The notes beneath the pieces were generated by a model. The model searched no databases. It had not been told where the DNA came from and saw only the letters and a program-made list of their open reading frames with translations. A DNA stretch of 64,000 nt from a bacterium (GTDB taxonomy: Bacteria > SZUA-79 > Acidulodesulfobacterales > Acidulodesulfobacteraceae). Position numbers and translations under genes: made by a program. The stretch is taken from positions 1-64,000 of the forward strand of contig DAHVOJ010000004.1 of assembly GCA_027318865.1 (NCBI GenBank), written 5' to 3'. Position 1 is the stretch's first letter; every line of letters begins with the position of its first letter. Below are positions 47,139 to 50,916 of this stretch, piece by piece.

Positions 47139-47305
47139 ACCTTAACTCACCGTTAGAGATTTTTTATCTGGATTCCCGCCTACGCGGGAATGACTATGCG
47201 GGGATTGAGGTTTTAACCCAAAAGGTGTCATTCCTGCGAAAGCAGGAATCCAGTATTTATAACTTGTTAAATCAATTTTTATAGTCTCTAACGGTGAGTT
47301 AAGGT
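47139..47305. mobile_element. MITE-like element with perfect 20-bp terminal inverted repeats
   Basis: CCTTAACTCACCGTTAGAGA at 47140-47159 is matched by its exact inverse at 47285-47304, and one further base pairs outside each end. The 167-bp interior has no gene. It holds two nested palindromes facing each other, TTCCCGCCTACGCGGGAA near 47172 and ATTCCTGCGAAAGCAGGAAT near 47230, each extended by CTGGA/GAC arms. No clear target-site duplication is visible. The whole unit could fold into one long hairpin. The minus-strand ORF at 47142 is a by-product. Confidence 0.8.
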
Positions 47306-47352
47306 AATAATAAAATAAATGCGGGACGGTCGAAAGACGGGCAGTCAAACAT

Positions 47353-47577
47353 ATGAATTACGATTACGAACTCGATACCTTCGGGTTATCGTGTCCTATG
47401 CCCATAATGGAAGTTGCGGGAGAATTTAAAAAAATTCCGGACGGCTCGGTATTAAAAGTAACGGCATCGGACGAAGGCATCATAGAAGATTTAAAAAGCT
47501 ACTGCAAAAAAACAGGACATGAATTTCTGTCTTATGAAATAAATCTGCCCGAATATATAGTTTACGTGAAAAAGTAG
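47353..47577 (+). CDS. TusA-family sulfur-carrier protein
   Basis: A 74-aa TusA/SirA-fold protein with the signature GLSCPMPIM, placing the persulfide-carrying cysteine at Cys14. Proteins of this family relay sulfur (or selenium) from a cysteine desulfurase to tRNA thiolation, molybdenum-cofactor or dissimilatory sulfur routes. It lies 49 bases before a NifS-like gene, so the two probably act together. The partner lacks the usual PLP lysine (see that entry), which leaves the source of sulfur open. Confidence 0.88.
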   Translation: MNYDYELDTFGLSCPMPIMEVAGEFKKIPDGSVLKVTASDEGIIEDLKSYCKKTGHEFLSYEINLPEYIVYVKK

Positions 47578-47626
47578 AGCTTATGTTTCGTTTAAAATAT
47601 TATATCGATATATCTGGAGGCAAAAA

Positions 47627-48811
47627 TTGAAGATAATTAATTTCGACCATTTTGCGGCATCTAAGATGAGGCGGGAAGTAAAAGACGCTATGGAGCCTTA
47701 TTTTATCGCTGAATACGGCAATCCTCAAAGTATTCATACGCTCGGCGACGAACCGAGGGAAGCCTTGGATAAAGCCAGACTTCGGGCGGCGGAGCTTTTA
47801 AATGCGGCAGGCACGGAAGTTATATTTACGGGAAGCGGTTCGGAATCTAATAATCTTGCCATTAAAGGAACGGCTTTCGCGAGAATAGACAAAGGCAAAC
47901 ATATAATCGTTTCTAAAATTGAACATTTCAGCGTTTTAAATTCGGTTAAATCTCTGTCGAAACTCGGTTTCGAAATTACGGAAATTCCCGTCGATAAATA
48001 CGGTTCGGTTGACCCGCAGGACGTTAAAAACGCTTTAAGAAAAGATACGATACTCGTCAGCGTTACTCAGGCGTCAAATGAAATAGGCACTATTCAGGAT
48101 ATTAAAGAAATTTCAAAAATCGTCCATGAAAACTCGGCGGCTTATATGCATACGGATGCAAACACGTCCTGCGGTTTCATAGACGCGGACGTCAAAGAAC
48201 TCGGGGTCGATATGCTTTCCGCCGCACCTCACAGGTTTTACGGCCCAAAGGGCGTAGGGCTTTTTTACCTTAAAAAAGGGATACGCATAATGCCCCTTAT
48301 CGACGGCGGTATTCAGGAATTCGGAAGAAGGGCGGGGACGGAAAACGTTCCGGCGATAGCCGGAGCGGGAGTCGCCTGCGAACTCGCCAAGAAAGAGTTA
48401 AAAGAAAGGACCGCGCATCTTCTGCCGATTCAAAGAGCTATTATGGACGGAGTGCTCGGCAGTCTGGACGAGGTTTATTTAAACGGGCATCCGGAAAAAA
48501 GACTGCCCAATAATCTTAACTTTGTCGTGAAATATATAGAGGGAGAGTCTATGCTTATGTGGCTCAATAACAACGGAATTATGGTCGCAAGCGGCTCCGC
48601 CTGCACGTCAAAAATATTAAAGTCGTCGCACGTATTAAACGCTATAGGGATTGACCCCGCGCTTGCGCAGGGTTCGCTGCTGATATCGCTCGGAGAGGAC
48701 AACACGCTTGAAGATGCGGAATATTTCGTTAAAGAACTTCCGGCTGTAGTCAAAAAACTGAGGGAAATGTCCCCTCTTTACGAAGAAGTTATGAAAAGAA
48801 ATAAAGAATAA
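47627..48811 (+). CDS. NifS-like class V protein lacking the PLP lysine
   Basis: A 394-aa protein aligned by eye to NifS/IscS cysteine desulfurases. Retained features are YGNPQSIH, GSGSESNNLAIKG, the PLP-stacking His100 (KIEHFSV), Asp177 (HTDAN), and the mobile-loop cysteine at Cys326 (SGSACTS). The Schiff-base lysine of the family motif S-x-H-K-x-x-G-P-K-G is replaced: the sequence reads APHRFYGPKGVG, so Arg203 stands in that place (codon AGG). The PLP-contacting Gln after Asp177 is Thr180, and the N-terminal D-x-A-A-T is DHFAAS. The TTG start follows CTGGAGG. Ordinary desulfurase chemistry seems unlikely. Confidence 0.82.
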   Translation: MKIINFDHFAASKMRREVKDAMEPYFIAEYGNPQSIHTLGDEPREALDKARLRAAELLNAAGTEVIFTGSGSESNNLAIKGTAFARIDKGKHIIVSKIEHFSVLNSVKSLSKLGFEITEIPVDKYGSVDPQDVKNALRKDTILVSVTQASNEIGTIQDIKEISKIVHENSAAYMHTDANTSCGFIDADVKELGVDMLSAAPHRFYGPKGVGLFYLKKGIRIMPLIDGGIQEFGRRAGTENVPAIAGAGVACELAKKELKERTAHLLPIQRAIMDGVLGSLDEVYLNGHPEKRLPNNLNFVVKYIEGESMLMWLNNNGIMVASGSACTSKILKSSHVLNAIGIDPALAQGSLLISLGEDNTLEDAEYFVKELPAVVKKLREMSPLYEEVMKRNKE

Positions 48812-48959: not shown

Positions 48960-49034
48960 GGGCGCGTAACTCAGGGGTAGAGTGCCACCTTCACACGGTG
49001 GAAGCCGCAGGTTCGAGACCTGCCGCGCCCACCA
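48960..49034 (+). tRNA. tRNA-Val (CAC)
   Basis: A 75-nt cloverleaf with encoded CCA. The acceptor stem GGGCGCG/CGCGCCC is perfect. The anticodon stem CCACC/GGTGG encloses TTCACAC, giving anticodon CAC for GTG codons. The T arm GCAGGTTCGAGACCTGC is canonical. The 148 bases between the NifS-like gene and this tRNA hold no intact gene, only short interrupted frames. Confidence 0.95.
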
Positions 49035-49207: not shown

Positions 49208-49579
49208 ATGTCCAAGAAAGAACAGGTATCCTTAAAAGGTCTATCAAGAAATAGGCTTAATAGTCTTTTGTCTGAGCTTAAGCGGATTATTGCCAGTATT
49301 TACGGGGAATCTCTAAAAGGCATAATCCTTTACGGCTCGTATTCGAGGCTTGATTTCAACCCTGAATCGGATGTCGATGTTATGATTCTTGCTTCAGGCA
49401 GTAAATCCGAACTTAAAAACCTGTTTAAAAAAGCGGTTTCGGCAACAAACGACCTTGATATAAAATACGGGGTTTTTGTTTCTATTATCGATTCCAATAT
49501 AAAAGATTTTAACAAGTATATCAATTACGTGCCTTTTTACGAGAACGTGCATAAAGAGGGTAAAAGAATTTATGGATAA
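49208..49579 (+). CDS. MNT-domain nucleotidyltransferase (antitoxin of an HEPN-MNT pair)
   Basis: A 123-aa minimal nucleotidyltransferase. The catalytic signature GS-x10-D-x-D is exact: GSYSRLDFNPESDVDVMI near residues 44-61. Proteins of this kind adenylylate and neutralise HEPN toxins. It overlaps the HEPN gene by 8 bases, the usual arrangement of such modules. It lies 170 bases after tRNA-Val in an accessory segment. Confidence 0.85.
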   Translation: MSKKEQVSLKGLSRNRLNSLLSELKRIIASIYGESLKGIILYGSYSRLDFNPESDVDVMILASGSKSELKNLFKKAVSATNDLDIKYGVFVSIIDSNIKDFNKYINYVPFYENVHKEGKRIYG

Positions 49580-49973
49580 GGCAATTTTTGACCTTTCCAT
49601 ATATCGATACAAAAAGGCCGAAGAAGAACTCGCCGCCGCTTCTATGCTGCTTAACGATAAACTTTATTCATCTTCTTTAAACCGTTCTTATTATGCAATG
49701 TTTCATGCCGTCAGAAGCCTTTTTGCTTTCCAGAAGATTGACTCAAAAACCCATAACGGCGTTAAATTACTTTTTGACCGGAATTATATAAAAACCGGAA
49801 AAATAGAAAATAAATATTCCGGGATTTTAAGAAATGCTTTTATAATAAGGCAGAAAAGCGATTATAACGATTTTTATATAGCTTCAAAGACCGAAGCTGA
49901 AAAGCAATTGAAAAATGCAGAGCTGTTTCTTGAGCGAATCAAGAAATATATTGATGAAAATTATCATGTCTAA
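49572..49973 (+). CDS. HEPN-domain protein (toxin partner)
   Basis: A 133-aa all-helical HEPN protein of the COG1895-like kind. SSLNRSYYAMFHAVRSLFAF near residue 36 is the family signature. IIRQKSDYND near residue 91 is where HEPN nucleases carry their R-x4-6-H motif, but no histidine is seen, so catalytic activity is uncertain. The start overlaps the upstream MNT gene. Related pairs act as toxin-antitoxin systems. Confidence 0.82.
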   Translation: MDKAIFDLSIYRYKKAEEELAAASMLLNDKLYSSSLNRSYYAMFHAVRSLFAFQKIDSKTHNGVKLLFDRNYIKTGKIENKYSGILRNAFIIRQKSDYNDFYIASKTEAEKQLKNAELFLERIKKYIDENYHV

Positions 49974-50147: not shown

Positions 50148-50420
50148 ATGAAAATAGTCGGAAAAAGAATTGTGGAAAAAGAGATTTCTTTTGAACCCAG
50201 AGGGGATTATCTAAAAGAAATTGCGACGTGGAACGATACAATAAAAGAAATAAGATTTTTCCCAAAAGGCATTTACCGCTATAAGACACATGAAGAAGCA
50301 GACGAACATTATTTAAATTGCCTTGCAAATAAAATTGCTAAAAATGAGTTAAAAAATTGTGGAAGAAGCGAGAAAGGCGACGATAGACGATTTAAAAACA
50401 GTCATCAAAGCTCTAAATGA
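50148..50420 (+). CDS. small protein paired with a nucleotidyltransferase
   Basis: A 90-aa protein I do not recognise. The core KEIRFFPKGIYRYKTHEEADEHYLNCLANKIAK (shortened) looks like the small partner that often precedes AbiEii-like or MNT-like nucleotidyltransferases; that comparison is from memory. The last 20 codons overlap the next gene in another frame by 62 bases. A TATAAT at about 50135 lies just upstream. It may be an antitoxin-type or targeting subunit. Confidence 0.6.
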   Translation: MKIVGKRIVEKEISFEPRGDYLKEIATWNDTIKEIRFFPKGIYRYKTHEEADEHYLNCLANKIAKNELKNCGRSEKGDDRRFKNSHQSSK

Positions 50421-50916
50421 AGCCGACGCCGAATATTTGTTAATCGGGGGATACGCTCTGCATATGCACGGCATAGCAAGAACAACTTCGGATATAGATA
50501 TCGTCGTTCCGGCAACCGAAGAATCTGGAGAGCGAGTCAGGCGGGCGCTTATGGTTTTACCTGATAAATCGGCAAAAGATATTCCCGTAGAGTGGTTTAA
50601 AGACGGAGAAACAATTAGACTAGCCGATGAAATAGTAGTGGATATTATGTTCACGGCTTGCGCAGAAACTTACGAGAGCCTATCTAAATATGCGGTAAAA
50701 GCGGATTTAGACGGAATAGCCGTTAATACGGTAAATTTAGAAGGACTTTTGCTTACTAAAAGGTCGCCGAGAGGTAAGGATATAACTGACCGGCAAATTT
50801 TAGAAACCGCTCTTAAAATACTGCGTGAACAAAACCTATCCAATGACCAAAAGCCAGATGCCTTTACCCGGAGCCTGCAAAATAAGCCTGACCATAAAAT
50901 TAAATTCAGAAGGTAA
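50359..50916 (+). CDS. nucleotidyltransferase (AbiEii-like fold)
   Basis: A 185-aa nucleotidyltransferase. LLIGGYALHMHGIARTTSDIDIVVPA near residue 27 carries the GG and D-x-D signatures. An in-frame stop lies two codons before GTG 50359, so GTG is the likely start, without a clear Shine-Dalgarno. It overlaps the preceding small gene by 62 bases. Such genes are usually toxin-antitoxin or phage-defence components, but a target is not evident. Confidence 0.75.
   Translation: MEEARKATIDDLKTVIKALNEADAEYLLIGGYALHMHGIARTTSDIDIVVPATEESGERVRRALMVLPDKSAKDIPVEWFKDGETIRLADEIVVDIMFTACAETYESLSKYAVKADLDGIAVNTVNLEGLLLTKRSPRGKDITDRQILETALKILREQNLSNDQKPDAFTRSLQNKPDHKIKFRR

Follow-up and report, generated by a model that had tools for sequence, protein, structure and literature searches.

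A lysine-less IscS homologue encoded with TusA and, in sister genomes, IscU, a predicted non-desulfurase partner in Fe-S cluster assembly

The window, i.e. the whole stretch of 64,000 nucleotides analysed here, carries a gene for an IscS/NifS-like protein with arginine in place of the Schiff-base lysine, preceded by a gene for a TusA-family sulfur carrier (Table 1). The best explanation, to which we assign a probability of about 0.6, is that the lysine-less IscS is not a desulfurase but an IscU-docking partner in Fe-S assembly, to which TusA, often together with DsrE, brings the sulfur. As part of this explanation, the protein is predicted to be an IscS homologue without cysteine desulfurase chemistry, and the corresponding activity is expected to be absent.

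By fold and sequence the protein belongs to the class V cysteine desulfurase (IscS/NifS) group. The NCBIfam equivalog cut-offs are missed, with 443 versus 531 bits for NifS and 357 versus 643 bits for IscS, and the TusA-like protein likewise stays below the cut-off of the E. coli-type TusA equivalog (47.8 versus 78 bits). Re-reading of the coordinates agreed with the initial annotation, which had described a TusA with an intact Cys14 located 49 nt upstream of the NifS-like gene. Orthologues of this TusA are adjacent to the IscS-like gene in the same genus and located downstream in other genera of the family. Shortly 3' of the IscS-like gene, a tRNA-Val (CAC) gene is found at 48960-49034, which is conserved in sister genomes. 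It is followed at 49208-49973 by an NTP_transf_2 nucleotidyltransferase gene with a HEPN gene directly behind it, a combination reminiscent of MNT-HEPN toxin-antitoxin modules (Pfam), and at 50359-50916 by an AbiEii-like nucleotidyltransferase gene.

Table 1. Features of the tusA-iscS-like locus in the window
Feature	Position	Strand	Details and basis
Dispersed repeat and end of synteny with sister genomes	47173..47340	.	Repeat at 47173-47253 (ATTCCTGCGAAAGCAGGAATCCAG core), copies on many contigs
TusA-family sulfur carrier	47353..47577	+	74 aa; ORF; Pfam TusA (PF01206) 70.9 bits, cut-off 28.6
TusA Cys14	47392-47394	+	TGT; cysteine of the CPxP type in an intact CPMP motif
Ribosome-binding-like site	47616..47620	+	GGAGG, 6 nt ahead of the TTG start; sequence
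Lysine-less IscS/NifS-like protein	47627..48811	+	394 aa, TTG start; Aminotran_5 230 bits (Pfam)
Thr180	48164..48166	+	Replaces Gln183 (E. coli IscS numbering); sequence, residue survey
Arg203, at the Schiff-base lysine position	48233..48235	+	AGG; preceded by CAC (His202, 48230-48232); motif APHRFYGPKG
Cys326, persulfide-loop cysteine	48602..48604	+	TGC, retained; residue survey
Leu352	48680..48682	+	Replaces Arg354 (E. coli IscS numbering); residue survey

In alignments with solved desulfurases, Arg203 stands opposite the catalytic lysine. The replacement reported in the initial annotation was thereby confirmed, as it was by the codons CAC AGG, and the true PLP position holds no lysine; His100, Asp177, Thr180 and Cys326 were also found as claimed. 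All 27 full-length homologues in the family of the window's organism have arginine at this position, encoded by AGG or AGA, and dN/dS values to sister genomes are 0.04-0.06. Because of these observations Arg203 is considered real and not due to chance or error, and a relic or a sequencing error was ruled out as its source. Judged by the substitution ratios, the gene is under purifying selection and maintained, not decaying.

A scan of named genomes, which yielded 80 loci, was combined with one covering a methanogen's phylum, which added archaeal forms. After removal of duplicates, 179 IscS-like loci were available, 109 lysine-less and 70 with the lysine (Lys-type). At the lysine position, Gln, Arg, Glu, Leu, Asn and other residues occur in the named-genome scan, and Asp, Thr or Gln in the archaeal forms. 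Among the hosts are Dehalococcoidia, Nitrospirae, Planctomycetes including anammox genera, Verrucomicrobia, Desulfobacterales, Aquifex and more. The equivalent of Gln183, the PLP O3' partner in E. coli IscS, is present in 70 of 70 Lys-type proteins versus three of 109 lysine-less ones. For Arg354, the arginine contacting the substrate carboxylate, the numbers are 69/70 and 15/109, and for Asn155 (E. coli numbering) 69/70 and 38/109. His100 and Asp177 are mostly kept among the lysine-less relatives (95 and 106 of 109, respectively), and the mobile-loop cysteine is present in all 109. Judged by this residue pattern, the catalytic site is dismantled beyond the lysine, with the loop cysteine being spared. 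The initial annotation was right about the lysine and glutamine changes but had overlooked further losses, such as that of the Arg354 equivalent, as well as the partner IscU described below. For many genes, an annotation as 'cysteine desulfurase' is probably mistaken.

The neighbourhoods of the two classes differ markedly. TusA is encoded within 1.5 kb on the same strand by 85 of 109 lysine-less but only one of 70 Lys-type loci, numbers that are indicative and no census, since the scan patterns were derived from lysine-less proteins and the Lys-type set is a by-product. IscU within 2 kb was detected for 98/109 versus 37/70 genes, and DsrE within 2 kb for 31/109 versus 0/70. Several gene orders were observed (T, TusA; s, lysine-less IscS; U, IscU; E, DsrE), namely TsU, sUT, TEsU, sUET and UTs, and the TusA linkage spans many bacterial phyla as well as Halobacteriota archaea. 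It is much stronger and wider than the initial annotation could have foreseen when suggesting a search for TusA next to such variants in other genomes. The 24 lysine-less genes without a nearby TusA are mostly of the Verrucomicrobia type or from Aquifex and some anammox bacteria. Fisher p-values for the associations ignore kinship among the loci and were not corrected for it, because the two to three lysine changes are too few for significance in an independent-pairs test of the TusA association. The sole Lys-type gene with TusA nearby, L145 (6001-7143), has lost the Arg354 equivalent and shows an altered loop (SPGSTCTF); it is possibly an intermediate or a reversal. The residues of E. coli IscS docking TusA, W45, E49 and D52, were tried as a class marker and rejected, as they did not separate lysine-less from Lys-type proteins.

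Some loci deserve separate mention. In the Verrucomicrobia-type lysine-less group (L139, L141, L143, L148, L149, L151, L159, L160), the lysine is replaced by Arg or His, IscU is located upstream, and TusA is lacking. At L135 (2893-3342) of the Desulfobacterales, an ORF with the appearance of an Rrf2-type regulator lies between lysine-less IscS and IscU. The IscU of L221 has an additional FeS_assembly_P domain.

A homologue search in 61 genomes detected close relatives throughout the family, with 79-94% identity, and a relative of 53% identity in another family with Thr at the lysine position. The gene order is IscU, TusA, IscS-like in most members of the window's genus, IscS-like, IscU, TusA in other genera of the family, and IscS-like, IscU, DsrE, TusA in the 53% relative. 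Thus, sister genomes encode IscU, TusA and lysine-less IscS together. In the window's own assembly, which is 87% complete, IscU was not found. Synteny with the sister genomes ends at about 47340, beside the dispersed repeat; the sisters carry IscU to the left of that point, and past IscU only short repeats are shared between their sequence and the window's genome. IscU is taken to be absent owing to a gap or a misjoin, or else because the region was rearranged at the repeat. Every genome of the family with IscU has exactly one, situated at the lysine-less IscS locus, with the exception of G001, where IscU lies at a contig end, consistent with that locus. SufB/D were detected in none of 18 family genomes, several of them 95-100% complete, and the same search was positive in 14 of 14 control genomes.

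The initial annotation had proposed a two-gene sulfur relay or scaffold consisting of TusA and the NifS-like protein. Its core, a TusA-linked non-desulfurase with a loop cysteine, is retained, but the two-protein relay was dropped because IscU turned up in sister genomes and completes the unit. We infer that the functional unit comprises IscU, TusA and lysine-less IscS, often with DsrE, and its predicted function is Fe-S cluster assembly.

The window's genome possesses a second IscS-like gene, L002, with a normal lysine (FSGHKFYALKG). Its neighbours, identified by sequence appearance, are an Rrf2-like regulator, a CysE-like gene and an MnmA-like gene, and since the latter and the other genes adjoin, a role of this Lys-type IscS in tRNA thiolation is suggested. 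Eight TusA-like genes are present in the genome, along with weak DsrE_2 matches; seven of the TusA-like matches lie outside the window (contigs C33, C121, C48, C47, C51, C44 and C22 of G000), with one scoring less than the curated threshold. Relatives of the organism carry dsrA and are therefore probably sulfidogenic.

The first phylogenetic tree, calculated before archaeal sequences were added, indicated a single origin of the lysine loss. Trees including archaea favoured at least two losses, one in a bacterial group containing the window's protein and one in a Halobacteriota group containing A. fulgidus IscS. A one-origin topology was found in none of 200 bootstrap trees, and the AU test leaves a single origin unrejected (p 0.139). 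From these trees the loss probably arose repeatedly, and both groups show TusA linkage.

The predicted fold of the IscS-like protein has a mean pLDDT of 90.8, the Cys loop (residues 325-331) being the low-confidence segment, and TM-scores to IscS/NFS1 structures are about 0.9. The top solved matches are structures of A. fulgidus IscS (4hvk, 4eb5, and the D199K mutant 4r5f), alone and in complex with IscU. This protein lacks desulfurase activity because Asp replaces the lysine, and one of its cysteines ligates the cluster held by IscU (PMC7585200). The likeness to A. fulgidus IscS as a non-desulfurase, raised in the initial annotation, is supported by the missing Schiff-base lysine, the conserved loop cysteine and its position as the nearest solved structure. 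At the corresponding locus, L250, whose product is 99.7% identical to the solved protein, IscU is next door and DsrE adjacent. The differences are Asp instead of Arg, an identity of 45-48% in structural alignments, placement in the separate archaeal lysine-less group on the trees, and no TusA detected within 1.5 kb. IscS1-IscU1 of Methanosarcina acetivorans also combines an IscS missing the catalytic lysine with IscU, and the neighbouring genes have been described as of unknown function (PMC7585200). Archaeal loci of this type, with an STGSACFS loop, carry TusA and DsrE; unlike the window's protein, IscS1 has kept Arg354 and lost His104 (Asp). The retained Arg354 and the change of the PLP-stacking His to Asp were seen in the Methanosarcina IscS1-type loci L220-L229 and similar archaeal loci.

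Within the bacterial clade, the Aquifex-type protein of PDB entry 9wfy and related entries is lysine-less (Leu) with pocket residues replaced at the same places, but neither TusA nor IscU was found beside the Aquifex genes. The 9wfy chain and six near-identical ones differ at just such pocket positions; read as sequences, they appear to be stepwise revertants and suggest that rebuilding the site needed several pocket changes; a publication describing them was not found. A two-component IscS-IscU layout is also known from the minimal Fe-S system MIS. E. coli IscS has the same fold and the same three partners (IscS, TusA, IscU) interact; TusA and IscU bind to it at distinct sites, yet in competition (PMC2854127, PMC11302665). 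Unlike the window's protein, it is active as a desulfurase and passes sulfur on to TusA. For the lysine-less protein such a donation is implausible, and the flow of sulfur would therefore be reversed, with TusA as the likelier donor and IscU as the recipient.

In the proposed mechanism, sulfane sulfur would be held as a persulfide on Cys14 of TusA, which would be charged from inorganic sulfur by DsrE- or rhodanese-type proteins, or by the other, Lys-type IscS of the cell. Delivery would take place on the IscS platform, either via a persulfide on Cys326 or with Cys326 coordinating the cluster, the arrangement known from A. fulgidus IscS-IscU, and IscU would build clusters without cysteine cleavage by the lysine-less IscS. 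The genome also encodes a Lys-type IscS, so the sulfur might in the end still derive from cysteine. The single IscU of the family at the lysine-less locus and the lack of detectable SufB/D speak for this explanation; the IscU missing from the window's assembly, the lysine-less genes without nearby TusA, the failure of the TusA-docking residues to separate the classes and the unrejected single origin speak against it. A broader proposal, for which we would claim slightly less than even odds, is a widespread module with IscS as non-catalytic hub and TusA, often with DsrE, as the sulfur input replacing desulfurase chemistry, a module that may have been reached at least twice, in bacteria and in Halobacteriota, and may, throughout a family of bacteria that bear dsrA and are probably sulfidogenic, be the sole scaffold system for Fe-S clusters.

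Among the alternatives, a protein that merely holds IscU and contributes Cys326 as a cluster ligand, with free sulfide as the sulfur source and TusA serving a neighbouring thiolation pathway, is the most serious, albeit unlikely. The A. fulgidus IscS-IscU complex is a precedent (PMC7585200), other minimal Fe-S systems, SMS among them, draw on sulfide (PMC12192291), the dsrA-bearing relatives are probably sulfidogenic, and some lysine-less genes have no TusA. However, a TusA linkage of such strength, in several gene orders and in two groups, would be hard to explain if TusA were unrelated. Retention of an altered PLP chemistry, with PLP bound non-covalently or by another lysine, e.g. Lys208 of GPKG, would fit the mostly kept His100 and Asp177, both PLP contacts in IscS. 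It is rated as very improbable: the substrate Arg, Gln183, Asn155 and the Thr-Thr contacts are gone in most members, Lys208 is common to ordinary IscS and replaced in several lysine-less proteins, and the apparent revertants around 9wfy point to the need for several pocket changes.

Many pseudoenzymes act by sequestering or restraining partners, and with a Lys-type IscS coexisting in the genome, the protein could in principle sequester IscU or TusA to restrain that enzyme. There is similarly little to recommend this reading, as the family's sole IscU gene accompanies that of the lysine-less protein, the search for SUF was negative, and MnmA, not IscU, adjoins the Lys-type IscS. In other settings, TusA and DsrE are found among the proteins of sulfur oxidation, a fact that together with dsrA in the relatives might indicate a relay into the Dsr pathway, separate from Fe-S assembly. 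A dissimilatory role had been considered in the initial annotation for the case of a sulfur-metabolising lineage; the lineage does bear dsrA, but a link between the locus and dissimilatory sulfur enzymes was not seen. The flanks read contained no recognisable dsr, hdr or sox genes, and the constant partner, in methanogens too, is IscU, leaving this relay the least probable explanation.

Lysine-less IscS itself is already known. In the literature searched, mostly without subscription papers, no description was found of its coupling to TusA/DsrE, its breadth or its probable repeated origin. For anaerobes in sulfide, the question arises how sulfur gets into Fe-S clusters; the known ISC, NIF and SUF systems begin with cysteine. 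A recurring, non-cleaving IscS tied to IscU and a sulfur carrier would give a supply of sulfur independent of cysteine a concrete route that can be tested, and in which the textbook direction from IscS to TusA would be reversed. With the TusA/DsrE linkage, the so far isolated finding on A. fulgidus IscS would acquire a partner, and some genes flanking Methanosarcina iscSU1 that had gone unnamed gain a likely identity.
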